DNA of 64,000 bases from Methanosphaerula palustris E1-9c (lineage in GTDB: Archaea > Halobacteriota > Methanomicrobia > Methanomicrobiales > Methanospirillaceae), in contig NC_011832.1 of the NCBI RefSeq assembly GCF_000021965.1, forward strand, positions 2,583,242-2,647,241, in the 5' to 3' direction. The translations under genes were made by a program, and so were the position numbers. Shown here piece by piece: positions 8,119-21,392 of this stretch (positions are counted from its first letter, which is position 1; every line of letters starts with the position of its first letter). The notes beneath the pieces are model-generated. The model had not been told where the DNA came from. It saw only the letters and a list, made by a program, of their open reading frames with translations, and did no database searches.

Positions 8119-8526
8119 TCAGAACTGCATCGGTTCGGGTGAGTACTGGTCGGCAACGATCAGCCATTGTTGCCCGTCATGCACGAGAAAGAACATGTCC
8201 CTGCCCTGCATGGTCTGCTGCTGTCCTCCCATCACGAACGTGATGGAGAAGAGATACGTGACCACGGCACTCTTCCCGCCGGAATAGATCTGTACCCGAT
8301 GATCGGCCTCCCTCTATACGAGGATCTCCGCCGCCTCACAGAATCCCCGCCAGCCGGCAACATAGGCATCCTGCCCTTCGAGCCTGCCGGGAGTTGTCGG
8401 GACGATAGCCACCACGTCGGAATGGAGGTACTGCCTGAATTCATCCTCATGCCACCCCTCGGTCCAGCACCGGTTCATCGCCCGGATGGTGGCGATCACG
8501 TCTTCACTGCGCTGTTGGATCTCCAT
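8119..8526 (-). pseudogene. SnoaL/NTF2-like small protein interrupted by an in-frame TAG
   Basis: The first 70 codons give a typical SnoaL-like (NTF2 fold) N terminus with WTEGW, LEGQDAYVAGWRGFCEAAEI, then a TAG at 8316-8314. The same frame continues without shift for 64 more codons: READHRVQIYSGGKSAVVTY, a MGGQQ segment, GRDMFFLVHDG, WLIVADQYSPEP, then TGA at 8121-8119. These are the expected second half of the fold, so the TAG interrupts one gene of about 135 codons. It is either a recent nonsense mutation or a recoded amber codon. No pyrrolysine genes are visible here, so a pseudogene is the simpler reading. Such proteins are usually of unknown enzymatic role. Confidence 0.7.
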
Positions 8527-8659
8527 GATTGTCCTCCACCATCGATTAGGAGACGAAGAGGGAAAAGGATGACGAAAACACCGTGCAAGTGACCACGCGC
8601 AGTCGACACCAGACCCGGATCGAAACCCCTTTCATCTCTACCAGATAATCTCCCAGACC

Positions 8660-10233: not shown

Positions 10234-13149
10234 ATGAACGAGAACACTGATTCAGTCCCGGTCGACGATGCCTTCCCCATCGTCGGTGTAGGTGCGTCTG
10301 CCGGCGGGCTTGAGGCCCTTGAGCAGTTCCTGAATGGTGTACCCCCAAAGAGCGGCATGGCCTTTGTGGTCGTCCAGCACCTCGACCCGACCCAGCCGGG
10401 TATGCTGCCCGAACTGCTGCAGCGTACCACCCCGATGCAGGTCATCCAGATCACGGACTCCCTGGTCATTCAACCCAACTGTGTCTACGTCATCCCGCCA
10501 GGCCATGACCTCTCCCTGCTCCACCGAACCCTCTTCCTGCTCGAACCGCACGCCCCACGGGGATTGCGCCTCCCGATCGACTTCTTCTTCCGTTCCCTGG
10601 CCGACGACCTGCACGAGAAGAGTATCGGCGTCGTTCTGTCTGGCATGGGCTCCGACGGCACGATCGGCCTGCGAGCGATCAAGGAAAAGGGAGGGCTTGT
10701 GATCGTCCAGGACCCCGCCTCCGCAAAATTCGACGGCATGCCCCGGAGTGCCATCGACGCGAGGCTGGCCGACATCGTCGCACCTGCCGAAGACCTGCCG
10801 GAGAAGATCCTCGCATTCGCCCGGCACCTGCCAGTCACCACCGAACCGGAGCCTCAGATCGAGTCAGGGGCAGAAAATGCCTTTGACAAGATCGTCATCC
10901 TGCTTCGGGCCCGCACCGGGCACGACTTCTCCCTGTACAAAAAGAACACTGTGAACCGGCGTATCGAGCGACGGATGGCGATCCACCAGATCGAGCGGAT
11001 CGCCACCTATGTACGGTTTCTCCAGGAGAACCCCCCGGAACTCGACCTGCTCTTCAGGGAACTCCTGATCGGGGTAACCAATTTCTTCCGTGATCCGGCC
11101 GTCTGGGAAACGCTCGGAGACCGGGTGATCCCGGACCTCATCACAGCCTCGCCGGACGGCACTACGCTCAGAGCTTGGGTGGCCGGCTGCTCAACCGGCG
11201 AGGAGGCCTTCTCCCTCGCGATCGTCTTCCGGGAGGCCCTCGGGAACCAGTCGCCGGCGAAGCAGTGTACCCTGCAGATCTACGCCACCGACCTCGACAC
11301 GGATGCCATCGACCAGGCGCGGATGGGATACTATCCCGAGACGATCGCGACCGATATTACGGAGGAGCGTCTGGACCGGTTCTTTGTCAAAGAGGAGAAG
11401 GGATACCGGGTCAGAAAGGAGATCCGGGAGATGGTGGTCTTTGCCCCACAGAACATTATCATGGACCCGCCGTTCACCAGGCTCGATCTTCTCAGCTGCC
11501 GGAACCTGCTGATCTACCTGGAACCGGAGATCCAGCGAAAACTGATCCCTCTCTTCCACTATGCCCTGAACCCGGGAGGCGTGCTGATCCTCGGCACGGC
11601 CGAATCCATCGGAACCTTCACCGATCTCTTCTCGTCGCTCGATGCCAAACTCAGGCTGTACCGTAAGGTCCAGCCTCCCCTGCCAGCACCATCGGTCGAA
11701 TTCCCCACTGTCTTCTTCCCGCCCACCAACGGTACAGTCGATCCGCGACCGACACAAAAACCGGTGGTTAACCTGCAATCGCTGGCCGACCAGGTGATCC
11801 TGCAGCAGTATGCACCTGCGGCCGTGTTGACCAGTGATACCGGCGACATTCTCTATATCAACGGGCGAACAGGGCGGTTTCTCGAGCCGGCGGCCGGAAA
11901 GGCCAACTGGAATATCTTCGCCATGGCCCGCGACGGGCTGCGTTCCGAACTGGGAGGTGCGTTCCGACATGCACTCCTACAGGAGAAGCCGGTCGCCCTC
12001 AGAGGAGTCAGGATCGTGAGTGAGGGGGTGACCGTTCACACAGACGTCACGATTCAGAAACTCACCGAGCCCTCTCCCCTGAAGGGGCTGGTGCTGATCG
12101 TTCTCGCCGATGTGCCACCCACTCCGGAAGCGCCGGTGCGAGTCCGCCACACCGGCCGGCGCGAGGAGATGCTGGACCTGAAGGAAAGGCTCCGCCAGAG
12201 CGAAGAGGATCTCAGGATAACCCGGGAGGAGATGCAGTCCTCGCAGGAGGAGTTGAAGTCGACCAACGAGGAACTCCAGTCGACCAATGAAGAACTCCAG
12301 TCGACCAACGAGGAACTGACCACCTCCAAAGAGGAGATGCAGTCGCTCAACGAAGAACTCCAGACCGTCAACACAGAACTGGAGAGCCGGGTCGCCGATC
12401 TCTCGCATGTGAATGACGACATGAAGAACCTGTTGAATAGCACCAACATCGCGACGGTCTTCCTCGACAACCAGCTCAACCTGCGGTGGTACACAGCCGG
12501 GATGACAAAACTGGTCAACCTGCTCCCGGGTGATGTGGGCCGGCCAGTCACAGACATTGCGTCCGACCTCTTCTACCCGGACCTGATCAGGGATGCCGGG
12601 GAGGTGCTGCGAACCCTCATTCCCGTGGAAACAGAGGTCACAGTCAGGGACGGCCACCGATTCTCGGTCCATATCACACCCTACCGGACCCTCGAAAACA
12701 GGATCGATGGCGTGGTGATCACGTTCGCGGATATCACGGCCTTCCGGAGACTGGAACAGGAACTCTCCAGGGCCCGCACCTATGCCGAGGCGATCGTGGC
12801 GACGATACGGGAGCCGCTGCTCGTCCTCGACAGTGAAATGCACGTCGTGTCGGCGAACCGCTCGTTCTTCGAGACGTTTCAGGTCTCACAGAAGGAGGTC
12901 GAGGGCCGCGAACTCTCCACGCTCGGCGACGGGGAATGGGACATTCCTGAACTTCAGCGGCTGCTGGGGACGATCCTGCCGGAGAACGCAGTCTTCAGTG
13001 ACTTACGGGTCGACCATATCTTCCCGACGATCGGACGACGCCTGATGCTGCTCAATGCCCGCCGGATCATCACCGAGGGAGGGAATACGGAACTGATTCT
13101 GCTCGCCTTTGAGGATGTGACCGATAGAGTGGGAGCGGACAGTCCATGA
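10234..13149 (+). CDS. CheB-CheR fusion with coiled coil and PAS domains
   Basis: Residues about 15-200 form a CheB methylesterase domain: VGVGASAGGLEAL with the catalytic Ser, VVQHLDP with the His, and SGMGSDGTIGL with the Asp. Residues about 215-480 are CheR-type methyltransferase: NTVNRRIERRM, WVAGCSTGEEAF as the SAM site, and SCRNLLIYL. A PAS-like stretch follows (about 510-610), then a long heptad-rich coiled coil (about 645-730, repeated STNEELQ), then two PAS units to the end. Such proteins put methylation, demethylation and sensing in one chain and are usually found away from classical chemotaxis operons. No receiver domain is present. The stop overlaps the next start (ATGA), so it is co-translated with the following kinase. 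Confidence 0.9.
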   Translation: MNENTDSVPVDDAFPIVGVGASAGGLEALEQFLNGVPPKSGMAFVVVQHLDPTQPGMLPELLQRTTPMQVIQITDSLVIQPNCVYVIPPGHDLSLLHRTLFLLEPHAPRGLRLPIDFFFRSLADDLHEKSIGVVLSGMGSDGTIGLRAIKEKGGLVIVQDPASAKFDGMPRSAIDARLADIVAPAEDLPEKILAFARHLPVTTEPEPQIESGAENAFDKIVILLRARTGHDFSLYKKNTVNRRIERRMAIHQIERIATYVRFLQENPPELDLLFRELLIGVTNFFRDPAVWETLGDRVIPDLITASPDGTTLRAWVAGCSTGEEAFSLAIVFREALGNQSPAKQCTLQIYATDLDTDAIDQARMGYYPETIATDITEERLDRFFVKEEKGYRVRKEIREMVVFAPQNIIMDPPFTRLDLLSCRNLLIYLEPEIQRKLIPLFHYALNPGGVLILGTAESIGTFTDLFSSLDAKLRLYRKVQPPLPAPSVEFPTVFFPPTNGTVDPRPTQKPVVNLQSLADQVILQQYAPAAVLTSDTGDILYINGRTGRFLEPAAGKANWNIFAMARDGLRSELGGAFRHALLQEKPVALRGVRIVSEGVTVHTDVTIQKLTEPSPLKGLVLIVLADVPPTPEAPVRVRHTGRREEMLDLKERLRQSEEDLRITREEMQSSQEELKSTNEELQSTNEELQSTNEELTTSKEEMQSLNEELQTVNTELESRVADLSHVNDDMKNLLNSTNIATVFLDNQLNLRWYTAGMTKLVNLLPGDVGRPVTDIASDLFYPDLIRDAGEVLRTLIPVETEVTVRDGHRFSVHITPYRTLENRIDGVVITFADITAFRRLEQELSRARTYAEAIVATIREPLLVLDSEMHVVSANRSFFETFQVSQKEVEGRELSTLGDGEWDIPELQRLLGTILPENAVFSDLRVDHIFPTIGRRLMLLNARRIITEGGNTELILLAFEDVTDRVGADSP

Positions 13150-14873
13150 AACCAGACCGTGAGAAGTCACTGAATCCAACACCCTCTGACACAAACCGCC
13201 TCAGACAGCATGCCGAGGAGGCGTTAAAGACACAACCGACCCTATCGGACGCAGTACTTTCGCATGAGAAAGCGATCGCCCTGGTCCACGAACTGCAGGT
13301 CCATCAGATCGAACTGGAGATGCAGAACGAAGAACTGGCCCAGACCCGGGAAGAGGCTGAAACTCTGCGGGACCAGTACATCGATCTCTATGACTTTGCG
13401 CCGGTTGGCTATGTCACGCTCGATCCGGCCGGGATCATCCAGGAGGTGAACCTGACCGGATCGCTGCTACTGTCAATGAACCGGGGGGCCCTCATCGGCG
13501 CACGGTTCGGGGCGTTCCTCCACCTGGACTCCCGGCTCCCCTTCACGGCGTTCTGCGAGCGGGTGCGTCGCACCGGCATCACAGAGACCTGCGACCTGAA
13601 AATGCAGGGGCCGGCCGGAGACCGGGTCTGGTATGCCCATCTGGATGGGAGGGTCAAGCAAGCGGGGCCGAACAGCGACGGTCGGATCCGGCTGGCCTTC
13701 AGCGATGTCACCGAGAACAGAAGGGCGAACGAAGCAGCAGCCGAGAGCGAACTGCGCTTCCGGCGACTCTTCGAGACAATGCTTCAGGGCGTGGTCTACC
13801 AGAACGCTGACGGCCGAATCATCTCCATGAACCCCGCAGCCGAGCGAATCCTCGGGAAGAGTCCGGCCGAATTCATCAACCAGACCTCGGAGGATACCGA
13901 GCATCACACGATCCGCGAGGACGGCACGAAGTTCCTGGGCCTGGAACATCCGGCGATGGTGGCCCTCAGAACCGGAGAGGATATCAAGGATGTGGTGATG
14001 GGCGTGTTCAATCCCAGGGAGCAGGGCTACCGCTGGATCAGCATCGACGCCGTCCCTCTCTTCCATCCGAGCGAGAAGAGGCCCTACCAGGTCTACACAA
14101 TCTTCGACGACATCACTGAGCGCAGAAAAGCCGAAGAGGTGCTCAGGGAGTATGGAGAGAAGGTGCAGGCGAGCAACGAGGAGCTCCAGCAATTCGCCTA
14201 TGTCACCTCGCACGATCTGCAGGAGCCACTCAGAAACATCGTCAGTTTCAGCCAACTCCTCAACCGACGATATCAGGGCCGGCTCGACGCAGATGCGGAT
14301 GAGTATCTCGGGTTCATCATCGAAGGCGGGCAGCGGATGCAGTTGTTGATCAAGGATCTGCTCCAGTTCTCTCAGGTCCAGACCACGGCCAGACCCCTGG
14401 AACAGGTGGACATGCACGGGGTCGTTGCCGACGTTCTTCGGATGATGGAGAGGCAGATCCGCGAAGCGAACGCGACCGTGACCATGGGCGACCTCCCGGC
14501 GATCATGGCTGACGCATCCCAGCTCGAGCAGGTCTTTACGAACCTCATAGGAAACGCCCTGAAGTACCGCCGGCACGACCTGCCCCCTGCGATCCAGATC
14601 TCAGCCGAGCGGATGAGGAAGTGCTGGCGTTTCGCTGTCGCGGATAATGGGATCGGGATCGCACCCGAGTTCTTCGATCGTATCTTTGTGGTCTTCCAGC
14701 GGCTCCATACGATAGAGGAGTTCGAGGGCACGGGGATCGGGCTCGCGATCGTCAAGAAGATCGTCGAACGACACGGCGGACGTGTCAGCGTCACGTCGGT
14801 GCCTGGCGAGGGGAGCACGTTCTTCTTCACCCTGCCGGCGGTGGAGATCCGCGCACGGTCACGGAATGTCTGA
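13146..14873 (+). CDS. PAS-domain sensor histidine kinase
   Basis: An N-terminal coiled-coil-like helix (residues 20-80) precedes two PAS domains (about 80-200 and 205-335). A HisKA domain follows, with VTSHDLQEPLRNIVSF, where His356 is the predicted phospho-acceptor. The HATPase domain has LIGNALKYR as the N-box, VADNGIGI and GTGIGLAIVKKI, all intact. The phytochrome-like HDLQEPLR kinase type differs from the HD-[IL]-x-NQ type of the large hybrids further on. There is no membrane segment, so it is cytoplasmic. Overlap with the CheB-CheR gene suggests the two proteins act in one pathway, with the methyltransferase/esterase possibly tuning this kinase. Confidence 0.9.
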   Translation: MKPDREKSLNPTPSDTNRLRQHAEEALKTQPTLSDAVLSHEKAIALVHELQVHQIELEMQNEELAQTREEAETLRDQYIDLYDFAPVGYVTLDPAGIIQEVNLTGSLLLSMNRGALIGARFGAFLHLDSRLPFTAFCERVRRTGITETCDLKMQGPAGDRVWYAHLDGRVKQAGPNSDGRIRLAFSDVTENRRANEAAAESELRFRRLFETMLQGVVYQNADGRIISMNPAAERILGKSPAEFINQTSEDTEHHTIREDGTKFLGLEHPAMVALRTGEDIKDVVMGVFNPREQGYRWISIDAVPLFHPSEKRPYQVYTIFDDITERRKAEEVLREYGEKVQASNEELQQFAYVTSHDLQEPLRNIVSFSQLLNRRYQGRLDADADEYLGFIIEGGQRMQLLIKDLLQFSQVQTTARPLEQVDMHGVVADVLRMMERQIREANATVTMGDLPAIMADASQLEQVFTNLIGNALKYRRHDLPPAIQISAERMRKCWRFAVADNGIGIAPEFFDRIFVVFQRLHTIEEFEGTGIGLAIVKKIVERHGGRVSVTSVPGEGSTFFFTLPAVEIRARSRNV

Positions 14874-15088: not shown

Positions 15089-18000
15089 TCAGGTGTTCTT
15101 CCCCGTGATACGCCACATACCTTTTGGCACCAGGATCTCAAACCGTGCCCCCGTGCCCGGCTCACCAATCTCATGAATGGCGATACCGGTAATATCAAGG
15201 ATCTCCCGAGAGATGGCTAAGCCAAGCCCCGTATTCTTCCCAAATCCACGTTCAAAGATCTTCTCCTTATGCTCTGCAGGGACACCATCGCCATCGTCCT
15301 CACATACGATCAGAAGGTCATCGCCAGATTCCTGCACAAAGAACCGGATGGTCGTGATCGTTCCGCCGTATCGAACTGCATTATCCATCAGGTTGTAACA
15401 GACCTTGACTATCAGCAGGTCGGCGAATATCTCGGTACCAGCAGGGAGATCGTTCTTCATCATGACCTGTCCGAACGGGACTGTCCTGGCCGCAGTATTC
15501 ACAAGTATTCGGATATCCTGCCAGACCGGGGCATTGACACCAATCGCTTCGTATTCTTTGGTGAACTGGATCATGGCGGAGATCCATTTCGTTGCAGTTG
15601 ATATTTTCTCAAAATTCTCGCTGAATGCGAGATCCAACTGTGAATCTGCGATTATATTGAGATATCCCTGCAGCGCGGTGAGCTGGTTGTTGATATCATG
15701 ACGGGTGATACTGAAAAGGAGGTTGAGTTTCCGGTTCGCCAGTTTTAATGCATCCTCCACCCGCTTCAGTTCAGTGATATCACGGACTGCAGCGAAGACA
15801 CCCACAATTTTTCCCGATTCATCGCGGTACACCGTCGCATTGTACTGAACAGGAGTCACCCGACCATCCCGGTGCCGGATCTCCAGGGCATAATCCACGA
15901 CAGTCCCGTCACGGAAGACCATCTTGTACCCGGCCTCTGCCCGGTCTGGTTCTGTAAAGTAATCTGAAAAATCGGTGCCGATCAGGTCAGCCCTTGGCAT
16001 ACCGGTTGCTTCTTCCGTGGCAGTATTCACATCCTGGATCTTCCCGTCACGGTTGATCGTTACGAGAGGATCGATGCTCGCTTCGATCAGGCTACGGTTA
16101 TAGGCGCCAAGTTCGTGCAGTGCTTCTTCCACCCGCCTGCGATCGGAGATGTCCCGAACGATGGCTTGCAGGCAGTAATCTCCTCTGAGCACAATGCGGT
16201 TGAGGGTCATTTCGACATCGAAGGGGGTGCGATCATGACGGGCAAGAACCCCCTCGAAAAATTGGGGTTCTCCAGAGAAGGCGGCATCAATCTTCTCTTT
16301 TGCTTTTTCTGCTGAAAGACTTCCGTCAGGCTGTCGTTCAGGTAGAAATTCCACAGGGGAGTGTCCGATGATCTGGTCCCGGGGACAGGCATACATCACC
16401 TCGGTGCTGTGATTGCACTCCAGAAAGACCGTACGGTTCATGATGAAGATGGCATCGCTTGCACTTTCAAAGAGCGTCCGGAACTTCGCTTCGCTCTCCA
16501 AGAGTGCCTCTTCGGCATGTTTTCGTTCGCTGATGTCCCTGATGTTGCACTGGATAATTCTCCTGTCATCAACAAGGTAGACATTGCTGATGAACTCCAC
16601 ATTCATCGTCCTGCCCTGAATTGTCTCCAGGGGCAGATCTTCATATCGGATATACCCCTCTGTCTTCAGTTCAGTGAACGCTTTTTTTGCCAGGGATTTA
16701 TCTTGGATAAATCCAAGTTCCCAGAGATGCTTCCCGAGGAAGTAATCCAGCGGGTATCCGAGCATATCCAGAATGAATTTGTTCGCATCGATGATCTCCC
16801 CGGTGTCCCCATTAAGGATCAGGATCGCATCCTGGGCTGTTTGAAACAGCCGACGGTACTTGAGTTCCGATCTCTTCAGGTCATCTTCGGCATGTTTTCG
16901 CTCGCTGATATCCCGGATGTTGCACTGAATAATTCTCTTGTCATCAACAAAGTAGATATTGCTGATGAACTCCACATTCATCGTCCTGCCCTGAATTGTC
17001 TCCAGGGGCAGATCTTCATATCGGATATACCCCTCTGTCTTCAGTTCAGTGAACGCTTTTTTTGCCAGGGATTTATCCTGGATAAATCCAAGTTCCCAGA
17101 GATGCTTCCCGATGAAGTAATCCAGTGGGTATCCAAGCATATCCAGAATAAATTTATTCGCATCGATGATCTCCCCGGTGTCCCCGTCAAGGATCAGGAT
17201 CGCATCCTGGGCCGTTTGAAACAGACGCCGATACCGAAGTTCAGATCTCCTCAGTTCACCTTCAGCAGTTCTTCGTTTCTCTTCATGATCAAGCGTCGCG
17301 AGGGCAAACGAGATATCCCCGGACTGTTCATGAAGAAGCCGGATGATCCGGTCGGTAAAAAATCCCGGTTCGGCAGCAAAGAAGGTGAGAACACCGGCAT
17401 TTTCCGTACCAAGTGCGAAGGGGAAGGCGGCAAGGGAACGATATCCCCGCTCGAGCGCTCCTTTGCGCCATGCCACCATGGCTGAATTATTTTCGATATC
17501 ATTGCAGACATTGGATCTTCCTTCCCGGAATGCAGTTCCGGTCGGGCCCTGCCCGTGGGGCACGTCATCAGTCGATATCGAGATCGAATCCAGATAGCCT
17601 TCAACATGACCGGCCTGTGCAATGGGTTCAATGAGGTGTTTTTCATCATCGACGATTCCTGCCCAGGCCATCATAAAACCGCCATCGTCGACAACGATCC
17701 GGCAGATCTCCTTCAGCAGTTCCGTTCTGTCATGAATATGAACGATTGCCTTGTTTGTCGTGCTCAGCACCGAATAGAGCCGGTTGACGATGGTGACCTG
17801 CTGATCGGCCCGGCGATGTTCGACTGCCGCCTTAATCTTGTGCGTGAGCTCGGCAAACTGTGGTTTGGGTGCTCCTCCTTTCTGAAGATAAAAGTCTGCA
17901 CCGTTTTCAAAGGCGTCGATTGCAACCTCCTCCCTGCCTCTGCCGGTGAAGAGGATGAACGGGATGGTCTTATTCGTCGTCCGGATCTTCTTTAAGAGTT

Positions 18001-18187
18001 CTATGCCATCCATTCCCGGCATCTGGTAATCGGAGACAACAGCCTGGATCTCATTGGATTTCATCAGATCGAGGGCGGCCGGAGCAGAAAGTGCAGTGGT
18101 GACCGAAAATTCGGTCGTCCGCTCGAGGTACAGTTTACCAATCTCGAGGAGTGCGGACTCATCATCTACATAGAGAACTGATATCAT
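15089..18187 (-). CDS. Hybrid sensor: receiver-GAF-PAS(x4)-histidine kinase
   Basis: The 1032-residue protein begins with a receiver domain (residues 1-120; VDDE acidic pair, phospho-acceptor Asp53 in VVSDYQMPGMDG, and Lys in the QKGG segment). A GAF-like domain follows (about 135-310). Then come two almost identical PAS units with a 125-residue period, two further PAS domains (about 575-700 and 705-815), and a kinase core with SITRHDINNQL (His830), YNLMDNAVRYGG, CEDDGDGVP and NTGLGLAISREIL. All catalytic boxes are intact. No membrane helices are seen. Receiver-first architecture implies it receives phosphate from, or is allosterically set by, another kinase. Its ATG is preceded by a hairpin at 18196-18233. 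A decaying paralogue lies just upstream. Confidence 0.9.
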   Translation of the reverse strand: MISVLYVDDESALLEIGKLYLERTTEFSVTTALSAPAALDLMKSNEIQAVVSDYQMPGMDGIELLKKIRTTNKTIPFILFTGRGREEVAIDAFENGADFYLQKGGAPKPQFAELTHKIKAAVEHRRADQQVTIVNRLYSVLSTTNKAIVHIHDRTELLKEICRIVVDDGGFMMAWAGIVDDEKHLIEPIAQAGHVEGYLDSISISTDDVPHGQGPTGTAFREGRSNVCNDIENNSAMVAWRKGALERGYRSLAAFPFALGTENAGVLTFFAAEPGFFTDRIIRLLHEQSGDISFALATLDHEEKRRTAEGELRRSELRYRRLFQTAQDAILILDGDTGEIIDANKFILDMLGYPLDYFIGKHLWELGFIQDKSLAKKAFTELKTEGYIRYEDLPLETIQGRTMNVEFISNIYFVDDKRIIQCNIRDISERKHAEDDLKRSELKYRRLFQTAQDAILILNGDTGEIIDANKFILDMLGYPLDYFLGKHLWELGFIQDKSLAKKAFTELKTEGYIRYEDLPLETIQGRTMNVEFISNVYLVDDRRIIQCNIRDISERKHAEEALLESEAKFRTLFESASDAIFIMNRTVFLECNHSTEVMYACPRDQIIGHSPVEFLPERQPDGSLSAEKAKEKIDAAFSGEPQFFEGVLARHDRTPFDVEMTLNRIVLRGDYCLQAIVRDISDRRRVEEALHELGAYNRSLIEASIDPLVTINRDGKIQDVNTATEEATGMPRADLIGTDFSDYFTEPDRAEAGYKMVFRDGTVVDYALEIRHRDGRVTPVQYNATVYRDESGKIVGVFAAVRDITELKRVEDALKLANRKLNLLFSITRHDINNQLTALQGYLNIIADSQLDLAFSENFEKISTATKWISAMIQFTKEYEAIGVNAPVWQDIRILVNTAARTVPFGQVMMKNDLPAGTEIFADLLIVKVCYNLMDNAVRYGGTITTIRFFVQESGDDLLIVCEDDGDGVPAEHKEKIFERGFGKNTGLGLAISREILDITGIAIHEIGEPGTGARFEILVPKGMWRITGKNT
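16544..17293 (-). repeat. Tandem 375-bp PAS-encoding repeat, two units
   Basis: Two nearly identical units with a 375-base (125-codon) offset; for example the landmark GTTGCACT occurs at 16544 and 16919. Each encodes a PAS fold plus the NIRDISERKHAE linker. The very high nucleotide identity indicates recent duplication or gene conversion. End points are approximate. Confidence 0.75.
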
Positions 18188-18195
18188 GAAAACAA

Positions 18196-18233
18196 AACCG
18201 GATGAAACTGATATTCATAGTAAACATCCGGTT
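18196..18233. promoter_or_regulatory. Inverted repeat just upstream of the hybrid kinase start codon
   Basis: AACCGGATG (18196-18204) and CATCCGGTT (18225-18233) form a perfect 9-bp inverted repeat around a 20-base loop. It ends eight bases before the ATG at 18187 on the minus strand and is followed by a T-rich stretch. It may be a 5' UTR hairpin or an operator. Confidence 0.45.
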
Positions 18234-18592
18234 ATCGATAATAAATACTTCGCCTCTACGAAGGAGGAAACTATCAAAGAGATGCTCCATTATTTTTTCA
18301 AATCAGGAATATGGTTGGAATTTAGTTTTTTTAAGGTATTCAATAAGAGAAGAGAGGTATAAAATTAGGTGCAAATCAGCCGGAAAAATATCCTGCAGAC
18401 CGGGGAAAAGAACCCATCCCCAGGCCCCACAGACCATCCATTGGAAGTGTGTATCACCTCGCCCGGAAAAACCCGCACCATATTCCTGAGATAACAAAAG
18501 ACCGGGGTGTGGAGTTCTGAAAATCGACAGAGAGATAAAAATGAGACAGTGAAGCCTACTCCGTTCTCAACAGACAAAACTTTCGTCCGCTT
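18234..18592. other. AT-rich intergenic region
   Basis: About 360 bases between the hybrid kinase start and the degenerate tail of its paralogue. It is AT-rich near 18280-18370. A 58-codon frame (18186-18362, plus strand) begins in the kinase start codon but has no recognisable similarity and is probably chance. The kinase promoter should lie here; I cannot assign its TATA box. Confidence 0.4.
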
Positions 18593-18953
18593 TCAGTCGG
18601 AAAAGTCGCACACTGCTGCAAAGTCCCCCTGTGATCTCTCCGTCGCTGCCGCGATACACCGTTGCATTGCACCGAATATATATGGTATGCCGGTTGGGAT
18701 GCCGGATCTCAAGCGGATGATCGATGCTTTTTCCCTGGAGATGATCTGACGATATCCCTCGCGTACCTTCTCCGGATCCGTACCGTGCTCAGAGAGATCG
18801 GTGCCAATCTGTTCATCCCCAGATATGCCAGTCACGTTCCCAGTGACGGTATTCACCTCCTGGATCGTTCTGTCAGGGCTGATCGTTACGAACGGATCGA
18901 TGCTCACTTCGAAAAGGCTGCAGTTGTACGTGCCAAGCCAGTGGAGTACCCCC
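18593..18953 (-). pseudogene. Degenerate PAS tail of the truncated hybrid sensor
   Basis: In a different frame from the upstream gene, this stretch encodes SLFEVSIDPFVTISPDRTIQ and further PAS-like sequence matching the fourth PAS domain of the intact paralogue (IDPLVTINRDGKIQDVNTAT). The match ends in a decayed MQRCIAAATERSQGDFAAVC and a stop, with no kinase core after it. It shows that the neighbouring 812-residue frame once continued. Confidence 0.6.
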
Positions 18954-21392
18954 CTACCTGCGATCGGGAACCTCCCGAACGATGGCTTGCAGGCAGTAAT
19001 CACCCTTGAGCACGATGCGGTTGAGAATCACATCGACATTGAAGGTGGTGTGATCATAACGGGTCTGGACCCACTCAAAAAACTGGGGCTCTCCAGAGAA
19101 GGCGGAATCAATCTTCTCTTTTGCTTTCTCAGTTGAAAGCCTTCCATCTGGCTGGCATTTCGGGGACAATGCCACAGGAGAACTGCCGAGGATCTGATCT
19201 CGGGAACAGCCAGATATCACCTCTGTATTGTGGTTGCAGTCCAGAATGACGGTGCTGTTCATGATGAAGACGGCATCGCTTGTATATTCAAAGAGCGTCC
19301 GGTACTGTGCTTCACTCTCCACAAGTGCATCTCTCACATGTCTTCGTGCGGTAATATCCCGGATGTTGCACTGGAAGATCTTCTTGTCACCCGCAAGGTA
19401 GACATGACTGATGAAATCAACGTCAATACTCCGACCGTCCTTTGTCTCCAGGGGCAGATCCTCGTACCGAATATAACCCTTCGTTTTCAGTTCAGCGAAT
19501 GCATGCTGAGCGATGAATTTGTCCTTGATGAACCCGAGTTCCCAGAGATGTTTACCGATACAGTACTCAAGCGGGTACCCGAGCATATCGAGAATGAATC
19601 CATTTGCATCAATAATTTCACCAGTATCACCGTCAAGGATCAGGATCGCATCCTGTGCTGTTTCGAAGAGACGGCGGTACCGGATTTCAGATATCTTCAA
19701 TGCATCCTGAAACACTTTCCTGCTGGTGATATCCCGGATGTTGCACTGGAAGATCTTCTTATCACCAACATAGTAGACATGACCAATGAAATCGACATCA
19801 ATACTCCGCCCGTCCTTTGTCTCCAGAGGGAGGTCTTCATATCGGATGCGACCGTTTGTTTTCAGTTCAGCGAATGCGTGCTGAGCGATGGATTTGTCCT
19901 TGATGAACCCGAGTTCCCAGAGATGTTTGCCGATACAGTACTCAAGCGGGTACCCCAGCATATCGAGAATGAATGCATTTGCATCGATAATTTCACCGGC
20001 ATCACCGTCAAGGATCAGGATCGCGTCCTGTGCCGTTTCGAAGAGGCGACGGTACCGGGTCTCTGATGTCTTCAATGCATCCTGAAACACTTTCCTGCTG
20101 GTGATATCCCGGATGTTGCACTGAAAGATCTTCTTATCGCCTACATTGTAGACATGGCTGATGAAATCGACAGTAATACTTCGCCCGTCCTTGGTCTCCA
20201 GAGGAAGATCCTCGTACCGGATATAACCGTTCGTCTTCAGTTCAGTGAATGCATGCTGAGCGATGGATTTGTCCCTGATGAACCCGAGTTCCCAGAGATT
20301 TTTGCCGATACAGTACTCAAGCGGGTATCCGAGCATATCGAGAATGAATGCATTTGCATCGATAATTTTACCAGTATCACCTTCAAGGATCAGGATCGCA
20401 TCCTGTGCCGTCTCAAAGAGACGGCGGTACTGGATCTCTGATTTTTTAAGATTGTTTATGGCCGCTATTCGTTGCTCTTCATGATCCAGAATTCCAAGAG
20501 CAAACGAGATATCTCCGGATTGTTCATGAAGAAGCTCGATGATCTGATCGGTAAAAAAACCAGATTCCGAAGCGTAAAATGAGATTACACCGGCATTTCT
20601 GGTATCTAGAGCGAAGGGGAAGGCAGCGAGCGAACGATAACCCCGCTCAAGCGCTCCTTTGCGCCACAGAGCCATCTTCGGATCGCTTTCGATATCATTA
20701 CAGACCGTGAACATTCCCTTGCGGAATGCAGTTCCGGTCGGACCTTGACCAAGGGGTATATCATCGGTCGATATCAACATCTGATCGAGAAAACCTTCGA
20801 CATATCCAGCCTGTGCAATGGGTTCGATGAGGTGCTTTTCACCATCGAAAAATCCTGCCCAGGCCATCGTAAAACCGCCGTCATCGACAACGATCCGGCA
20901 GATCTCGTTCAACAGTTCCTTTTTATCATGGATACGAACGATTGCGTGGTTTGTCGCACTGAGCACCGTATAGAGCCGCTGGAGGGCGATGACCTGGAGA
21001 TCAGCCCGGCGATGATTGACTGCTGCCTTAATCTTATGTGAAAGTTCGGCAAACTGTGGTTTGGGCGCCCCACCTTTCTGGAGATAAAAATCCGCACCGT
21101 TTTCAAAAGCCTGAATAGCGATCTCTTCCCTGCCCCTGCCGGTGAAGAGGATGAACGGGATGGATTTATTCATCGCCCTGACCGCTTTTAATAACTCAAT
21201 ACCATCCATCCCCGGCATCTGATAATCAGAGACAATGGCCTGGATATCATTAGATTTCATCAGGTCGAGGGCAGCCCGAGCAGATGATGTCGTGATCACG
21301 GAAAAATCAGTCGTCCGCTCGAGGTACAGTTTTCCAATGTCGAGGAGGACGGACTCATCGTCTACATAAAGAACCGATATCGTAGAAACCAA
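18954..21392 (-). CDS. Truncated hybrid sensor: receiver-GAF-PAS(x4), kinase lost
   Basis: This is a close paralogue of the intact hybrid kinase 15089-18187. It has a receiver (acceptor Asp56 in VSDYQMPGMDG), a GAF-like region, three near-identical PAS units of 125 residues and a fourth PAS, then stops at REVPDRR where the paralogue continues to more PAS and a kinase. The paralogue starts ATG-ATA-TCA; here the same place reads ACG-ATA-TCG, so the ancestral start is lost and the only initiator in frame is a TTG three codons earlier with no obvious ribosome-binding site. Both facts suggest a decaying gene, although the 812-codon frame is otherwise clean and a sensor without kinase could still be made. 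Confidence 0.75.
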   Translation of the reverse strand: MVSTISVLYVDDESVLLDIGKLYLERTTDFSVITTSSARAALDLMKSNDIQAIVSDYQMPGMDGIELLKAVRAMNKSIPFILFTGRGREEIAIQAFENGADFYLQKGGAPKPQFAELSHKIKAAVNHRRADLQVIALQRLYTVLSATNHAIVRIHDKKELLNEICRIVVDDGGFTMAWAGFFDGEKHLIEPIAQAGYVEGFLDQMLISTDDIPLGQGPTGTAFRKGMFTVCNDIESDPKMALWRKGALERGYRSLAAFPFALDTRNAGVISFYASESGFFTDQIIELLHEQSGDISFALGILDHEEQRIAAINNLKKSEIQYRRLFETAQDAILILEGDTGKIIDANAFILDMLGYPLEYCIGKNLWELGFIRDKSIAQHAFTELKTNGYIRYEDLPLETKDGRSITVDFISHVYNVGDKKIFQCNIRDITSRKVFQDALKTSETRYRRLFETAQDAILILDGDAGEIIDANAFILDMLGYPLEYCIGKHLWELGFIKDKSIAQHAFAELKTNGRIRYEDLPLETKDGRSIDVDFIGHVYYVGDKKIFQCNIRDITSRKVFQDALKISEIRYRRLFETAQDAILILDGDTGEIIDANGFILDMLGYPLEYCIGKHLWELGFIKDKFIAQHAFAELKTKGYIRYEDLPLETKDGRSIDVDFISHVYLAGDKKIFQCNIRDITARRHVRDALVESEAQYRTLFEYTSDAVFIMNSTVILDCNHNTEVISGCSRDQILGSSPVALSPKCQPDGRLSTEKAKEKIDSAFSGEPQFFEWVQTRYDHTTFNVDVILNRIVLKGDYCLQAIVREVPDRR
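19365..20489 (-). repeat. Tandem 375-bp PAS-encoding repeat, three units
   Basis: The landmark GTTGCACT occurs at 19365, 19740 and 20115, exactly 375 bases apart. The units are related to the two in 15089-18187 and are nearly identical to one another in DNA. End points are approximate. Confidence 0.75.

Follow-up and report, generated by a model that had tools for sequence, protein, structure and literature searches.

We found one in-frame TAG in a SnoaL-like gene of Methanosphaerula palustris E1-9c, within the window, the whole 64,000-nucleotide stretch of contig NC_011832.1 analyzed here. The gene lies on the minus strand, which the preliminary description had left unstated while placing the coordinates and the 70 and 64 codons on either side of the TAG correctly; in its own frame the plus strand of 8119-8526 encodes no such protein. 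The features are:

8119-8526, minus strand: SnoaL/NTF2-like (DUF4440-like) gene with an internal stop; 135 codons including the TAG, plus the terminal TGA at 8121-8119
8317-8526, minus strand: N-terminal 70 codons, open, with the ATG start at 8526
8314-8316, minus strand: the in-frame TAG (read 8316-8314), at codon 71, where 26 of 27 relatives have TGG (Trp)
8122-8313, minus strand: 64 codons past the TAG, frame unchanged, conserved
8533-8537, minus strand: GGAGG, likely ribosome-binding site as read from the sequence, intact, 6 bases upstream of the ATG

The two halves match Pfam more strongly when joined than either does alone. The joined protein scores E 9.2e-9 with SnoaL_3 and 1.1e-8 with DUF4440 and exceeds the curated scores of three Pfam models (36.1 against 22, 35.9 against 25.2 and 31.9 against 27), whereas the best matches of the N half (SnoaL_2, E 1.4e-4) and of the C half (DUF4440, E 2.9e-4; SnoaL_3, E 3.2e-4) fall below cut-off. 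Identity of the read-through protein to relatives reaches 76%, over residues 1-133. As proposed earlier, the halves make up one NTF2/SnoaL-like domain, with conserved sequence flanking the TAG, and the continuity across it is far beyond chance. By profile the protein belongs to the SnoaL-like/DUF4440 group of the NTF2-like superfamily; its reading frame is interrupted at codon 71, and it is therefore classed as a pseudogene of the family rather than a working member. NCBIfam models gave no match to the read-through protein, a plasmid search with the SnoaL-like sequence found none, and a sequence search of solved structures returned only 3gwr, borderline at E 0.099.

Homologs were sought in 232 genomes of the order Methanomicrobiales. 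The 28 genomes that matched, the window's own included, all belong to one family of the order, to which this narrower SnoaL-like group was confined in the search, and 204 had no match. The codon alignment contains 27 full-length relatives, one from each of 26 genomes and, in one of these, a tandem second copy as well. Left out before this count were the row of the window itself; the fragment L032, which ends short of the site; L033, both copies of which are identical to those read from L021; L034 with six further weak rows (E 9.6e-5 to 8.6e-4); and L035-L041, with the same translations as L006, L007, L008, L010, L011, L015 and L020. At codon 71, where a check of orthologs had been suggested, all 27 relatives have a sense codon: TGG in 26 and CGC in the tandem second copy; none has TAG. 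TGG and TAG differ by one transition, G-to-A on the coding strand. The codons immediately upstream of the stop are also altered: the nearest relative reads CAC GAA TGG AGA against CTC GTA TAG AGG in M. palustris, and the residues before the stop are EILV where relatives have mostly VIHE. Twenty-two columns (11 before the stop, 11 after) do not vary among the other sequences, and the broken gene departs from none of them. The tandem duplicate, at G160:C27:162567-163442 (L021/L033), is a divergent second copy and the sole relative without Trp at site 71.

Third-position GC is equal across the halves (0.76 and 0.77), and whole-gene dN/dS is 0.14 to 0.29 against 12 relatives. In nine of the 12, one of which has saturated dS, dN/dS is greater after the stop than before it, because synonymous change is lower there; pN is greater after the stop in only two. 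The post/pre pN ratio over all partners is 0.91 for the broken gene, and other genes range from 0.71 to 1.15. A fixed tree of 27 protein sequences (divergent tandem copy L021_1 excluded) gives the broken gene a long branch in both halves, 0.301 before the TAG (rank 4 of 27) and 0.244 after it (rank 5 of 27); the tree totals are 6.76 for the post-TAG half and 6.82 for the pre-TAG half. Among pairs with pS between 0.3 and 0.62, again excluding L021_1, median dN/dS is 0.254 for the 20 with the broken gene and 0.220 for the 150 without, ranking it fourth of 27, with the other stop-bearing gene, L024, fifth. A small simulation was set aside as circular, since it uses the observed branch for its baseline. 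Selection has acted on the gene through most of its past. Since invariant columns, GC3 and dN/dS show no decay except the stop itself, either a recent mutation or continued expression is required; the selection data fit a recent stop and a full-length product still being made equally well.

The fold was modeled with AlphaFold2 on an intact relative, L006 (mean pLDDT 90). The model has helices at residues 2-22, 27-31 and 51-65, followed by four strands; residue 71 lies within the first long strand, 66-81, and three more strands come after it. In this prediction the helices pack on a curved sheet, giving L006 the cone fold of the NTF2-like superfamily, a membership that suggests small-molecule binding or a lyase/isomerase-type role. 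Foldseek matched the model to known NTF2-like proteins, the top solved matches having TM about 0.7; the best were CaMKII association-domain-like proteins, CaMKII hubs, SgcJ and a putative ketosteroid isomerase.

The gene is very probably a recent nonsense pseudogene, in which one G-to-A change would have turned the conserved Trp71 codon into TAG. Translation would start at the intact ribosome-binding site and ATG and end after 70 residues, leaving a product that keeps the helices and only the beginning of the first long strand; with most of the sheet missing, no stable NTF2 fold is expected. We infer that function has been lost and that the stop is recent. Of 41 long window ORFs that do not overlap, picked by length alone, five end in TAG, 3 in TAA and 33 in TGA, and TAG so appears to be a normal stop in use. 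The preliminary description had raised recoding while calling nonsense mutation simpler; of the two, nonsense mutation is supported and recoding is not.

The gene is also patchy in occurrence, and it decays in other genomes. In G171 (locus L024, 1474-1890) there is a TGA at codon 59 where relatives have TGG, with the frame open afterwards, an independent nonsense codon in the same gene; in G189 the gene is a fragment of about 40 codons only. With these two cases, both in multi-contig drafts, and the 204 of 232 genomes without a match, some of them incomplete, the gene looks dispensable and easily lost. Its surroundings were considered as a clue to function and rejected: among five relative loci with ORFs listed, Pfam identified a PQ-loop and an RDD-family gene downstream in those tested, yet when 18 relative loci were compared with the window by tblastx, the SnoaL-like gene was the sole shared item in 15, the remaining three (L010, L013 and L016) had scattered extra matches in the window, and the RDD protein has only a 36% match in the M. 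palustris genome, a long way off at 311 kb. By eye, the large neighboring ORFs at window positions 10234-14873 and 15089-21392 resemble CheB/CheR-type, PAS and response-regulator/histidine-kinase-like proteins, and their PAS-like segments are internally repeated.

The first alternative to nonsense mutation is that an error in sequencing or assembly hides an intact gene with TGG at this codon. One wrong base would account for everything, including the conserved residues kept in both halves; however, the genome is a single contig of 2,922,917 bases, estimated 99% complete, and the altered flanking codons show that the site has undergone other changes as well. We consider such an error quite unlikely.

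Partial readthrough of the TAG, by near-cognate or Trp insertion yielding some full-length protein, would fit the branch lengths, which give no excess of amino-acid change downstream; but a recent mutation accounts for the conservation equally well, and no relative shares the stop. No suppressor tRNA was seen: among 51 RF00005 matches in the genome ARAGORN called no CTA anticodon, one match first missed proving to be tRNA-Met when introns were allowed. Since tRNA-Tyr and tRNA-Trp are also absent from this list, the scan is incomplete and may have missed a suppressor tRNA. A pattern search for CTA gave nine matches, and its reversed control gave 12. By position, the nine are five inside RF00005 tRNAs but outside the anticodon, one a tRNA-Arg (anticodon TCT), and three elsewhere, at which ARAGORN called no tRNA. 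The corresponding tRNA-Trp control pattern gave 49 matches, none tied to tRNA-Trp, and ARAGORN found nothing at the one near 712,935. Partial readthrough is rated very unlikely, and it is highly improbable that the TAG is usefully translated, whether through a missed suppressor tRNA or leaky termination, with the full-length SnoaL-like protein still made without pyrrolysine genes.

Apart from these questions, the tRNA scan placed tRNA-Thr(TGT) and tRNA-Cys(GCA) genes of equal scores about 3.1 kb apart at three places, in what is probably a repeated unit. In all, tRNA-Cys genes numbered eight, many for an archaeon.

G000:C1 755580-758868, 1212862-1216148 and 1727324-1730610: tRNA-Thr(TGT)/tRNA-Cys(GCA) pairs

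The 70-residue N-terminal product might instead be the working protein, either by itself or together with a C-terminal piece that has its own start, and the intact ribosome-binding site and start codon would serve it. Against this, most of the four-strand sheet in the relative's model falls outside the N half, the ORF list has no ORF of at least 60 residues beginning past the TAG in frame, and conservation with relatives' full-length proteins extends over both halves; we regard a working truncated product as scarcely probable.

Pyrrolysine was suggested by an amber codon in a methanogen with conserved flanks on both sides. Genome-wide profile searches, in agreement with the earlier remark that no pyrrolysine genes were visible, placed nothing over the curated cut-offs for PylS (best 26.7 of 178.15 bits), PylC (27.3 of 248.3) or PylB (36.6 of 348.2), and for PylD there was nothing at all, even weak. 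Of 14 control genomes, exactly one exceeded the cut-off each time; the controls included Methanosarcina acetivorans, the one expected to pass, and the output leaves the passing genome unnamed. A single match to a pylT anticodon-arm pattern was rejected, ARAGORN calling no tRNA there. PMC3037878 lists M. palustris E1-9c with aSelBL and without pylS, and gives pylS as encoded only by Methanosarcinales among the archaea surveyed there. With TAG at this site in no relative as well, insertion of pyrrolysine is close to refuted. According to the preliminary description, a lack of pyl genes together with a sense codon in all relatives would mean a plain pseudogene, and as far as this was testable that is the pattern found.

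The result removes one candidate for amber recoding outside the archaea that use Pyl, and records another loss of a dispensable small gene, in itself of little importance; were readthrough shown, it would be an unexpected instance of a suppressed stop codon in a genome that has no Pyl machinery. The pyrrolysine-decoded genes of Methanosarcinales, which include methylamine methyltransferases, likewise combine a lone in-frame TAG, conserved flanks and a methanogen host, but the M. palustris genome has no Pyl machinery over cut-off, the relatives of the broken gene have TGG, and the protein is SnoaL-like, not a methyltransferase. The likeness to CaMKII hub domains, SgcJ and ketosteroid-isomerase-like structures belongs to the predicted fold of the intact relative L006. 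The read-through protein matches the SnoaL-like/DUF4440 families (Pfam PF13474, PF14534 and PF12680) in sequence over its whole length, and the M. palustris gene differs from them in being interrupted by the stop at codon 71.
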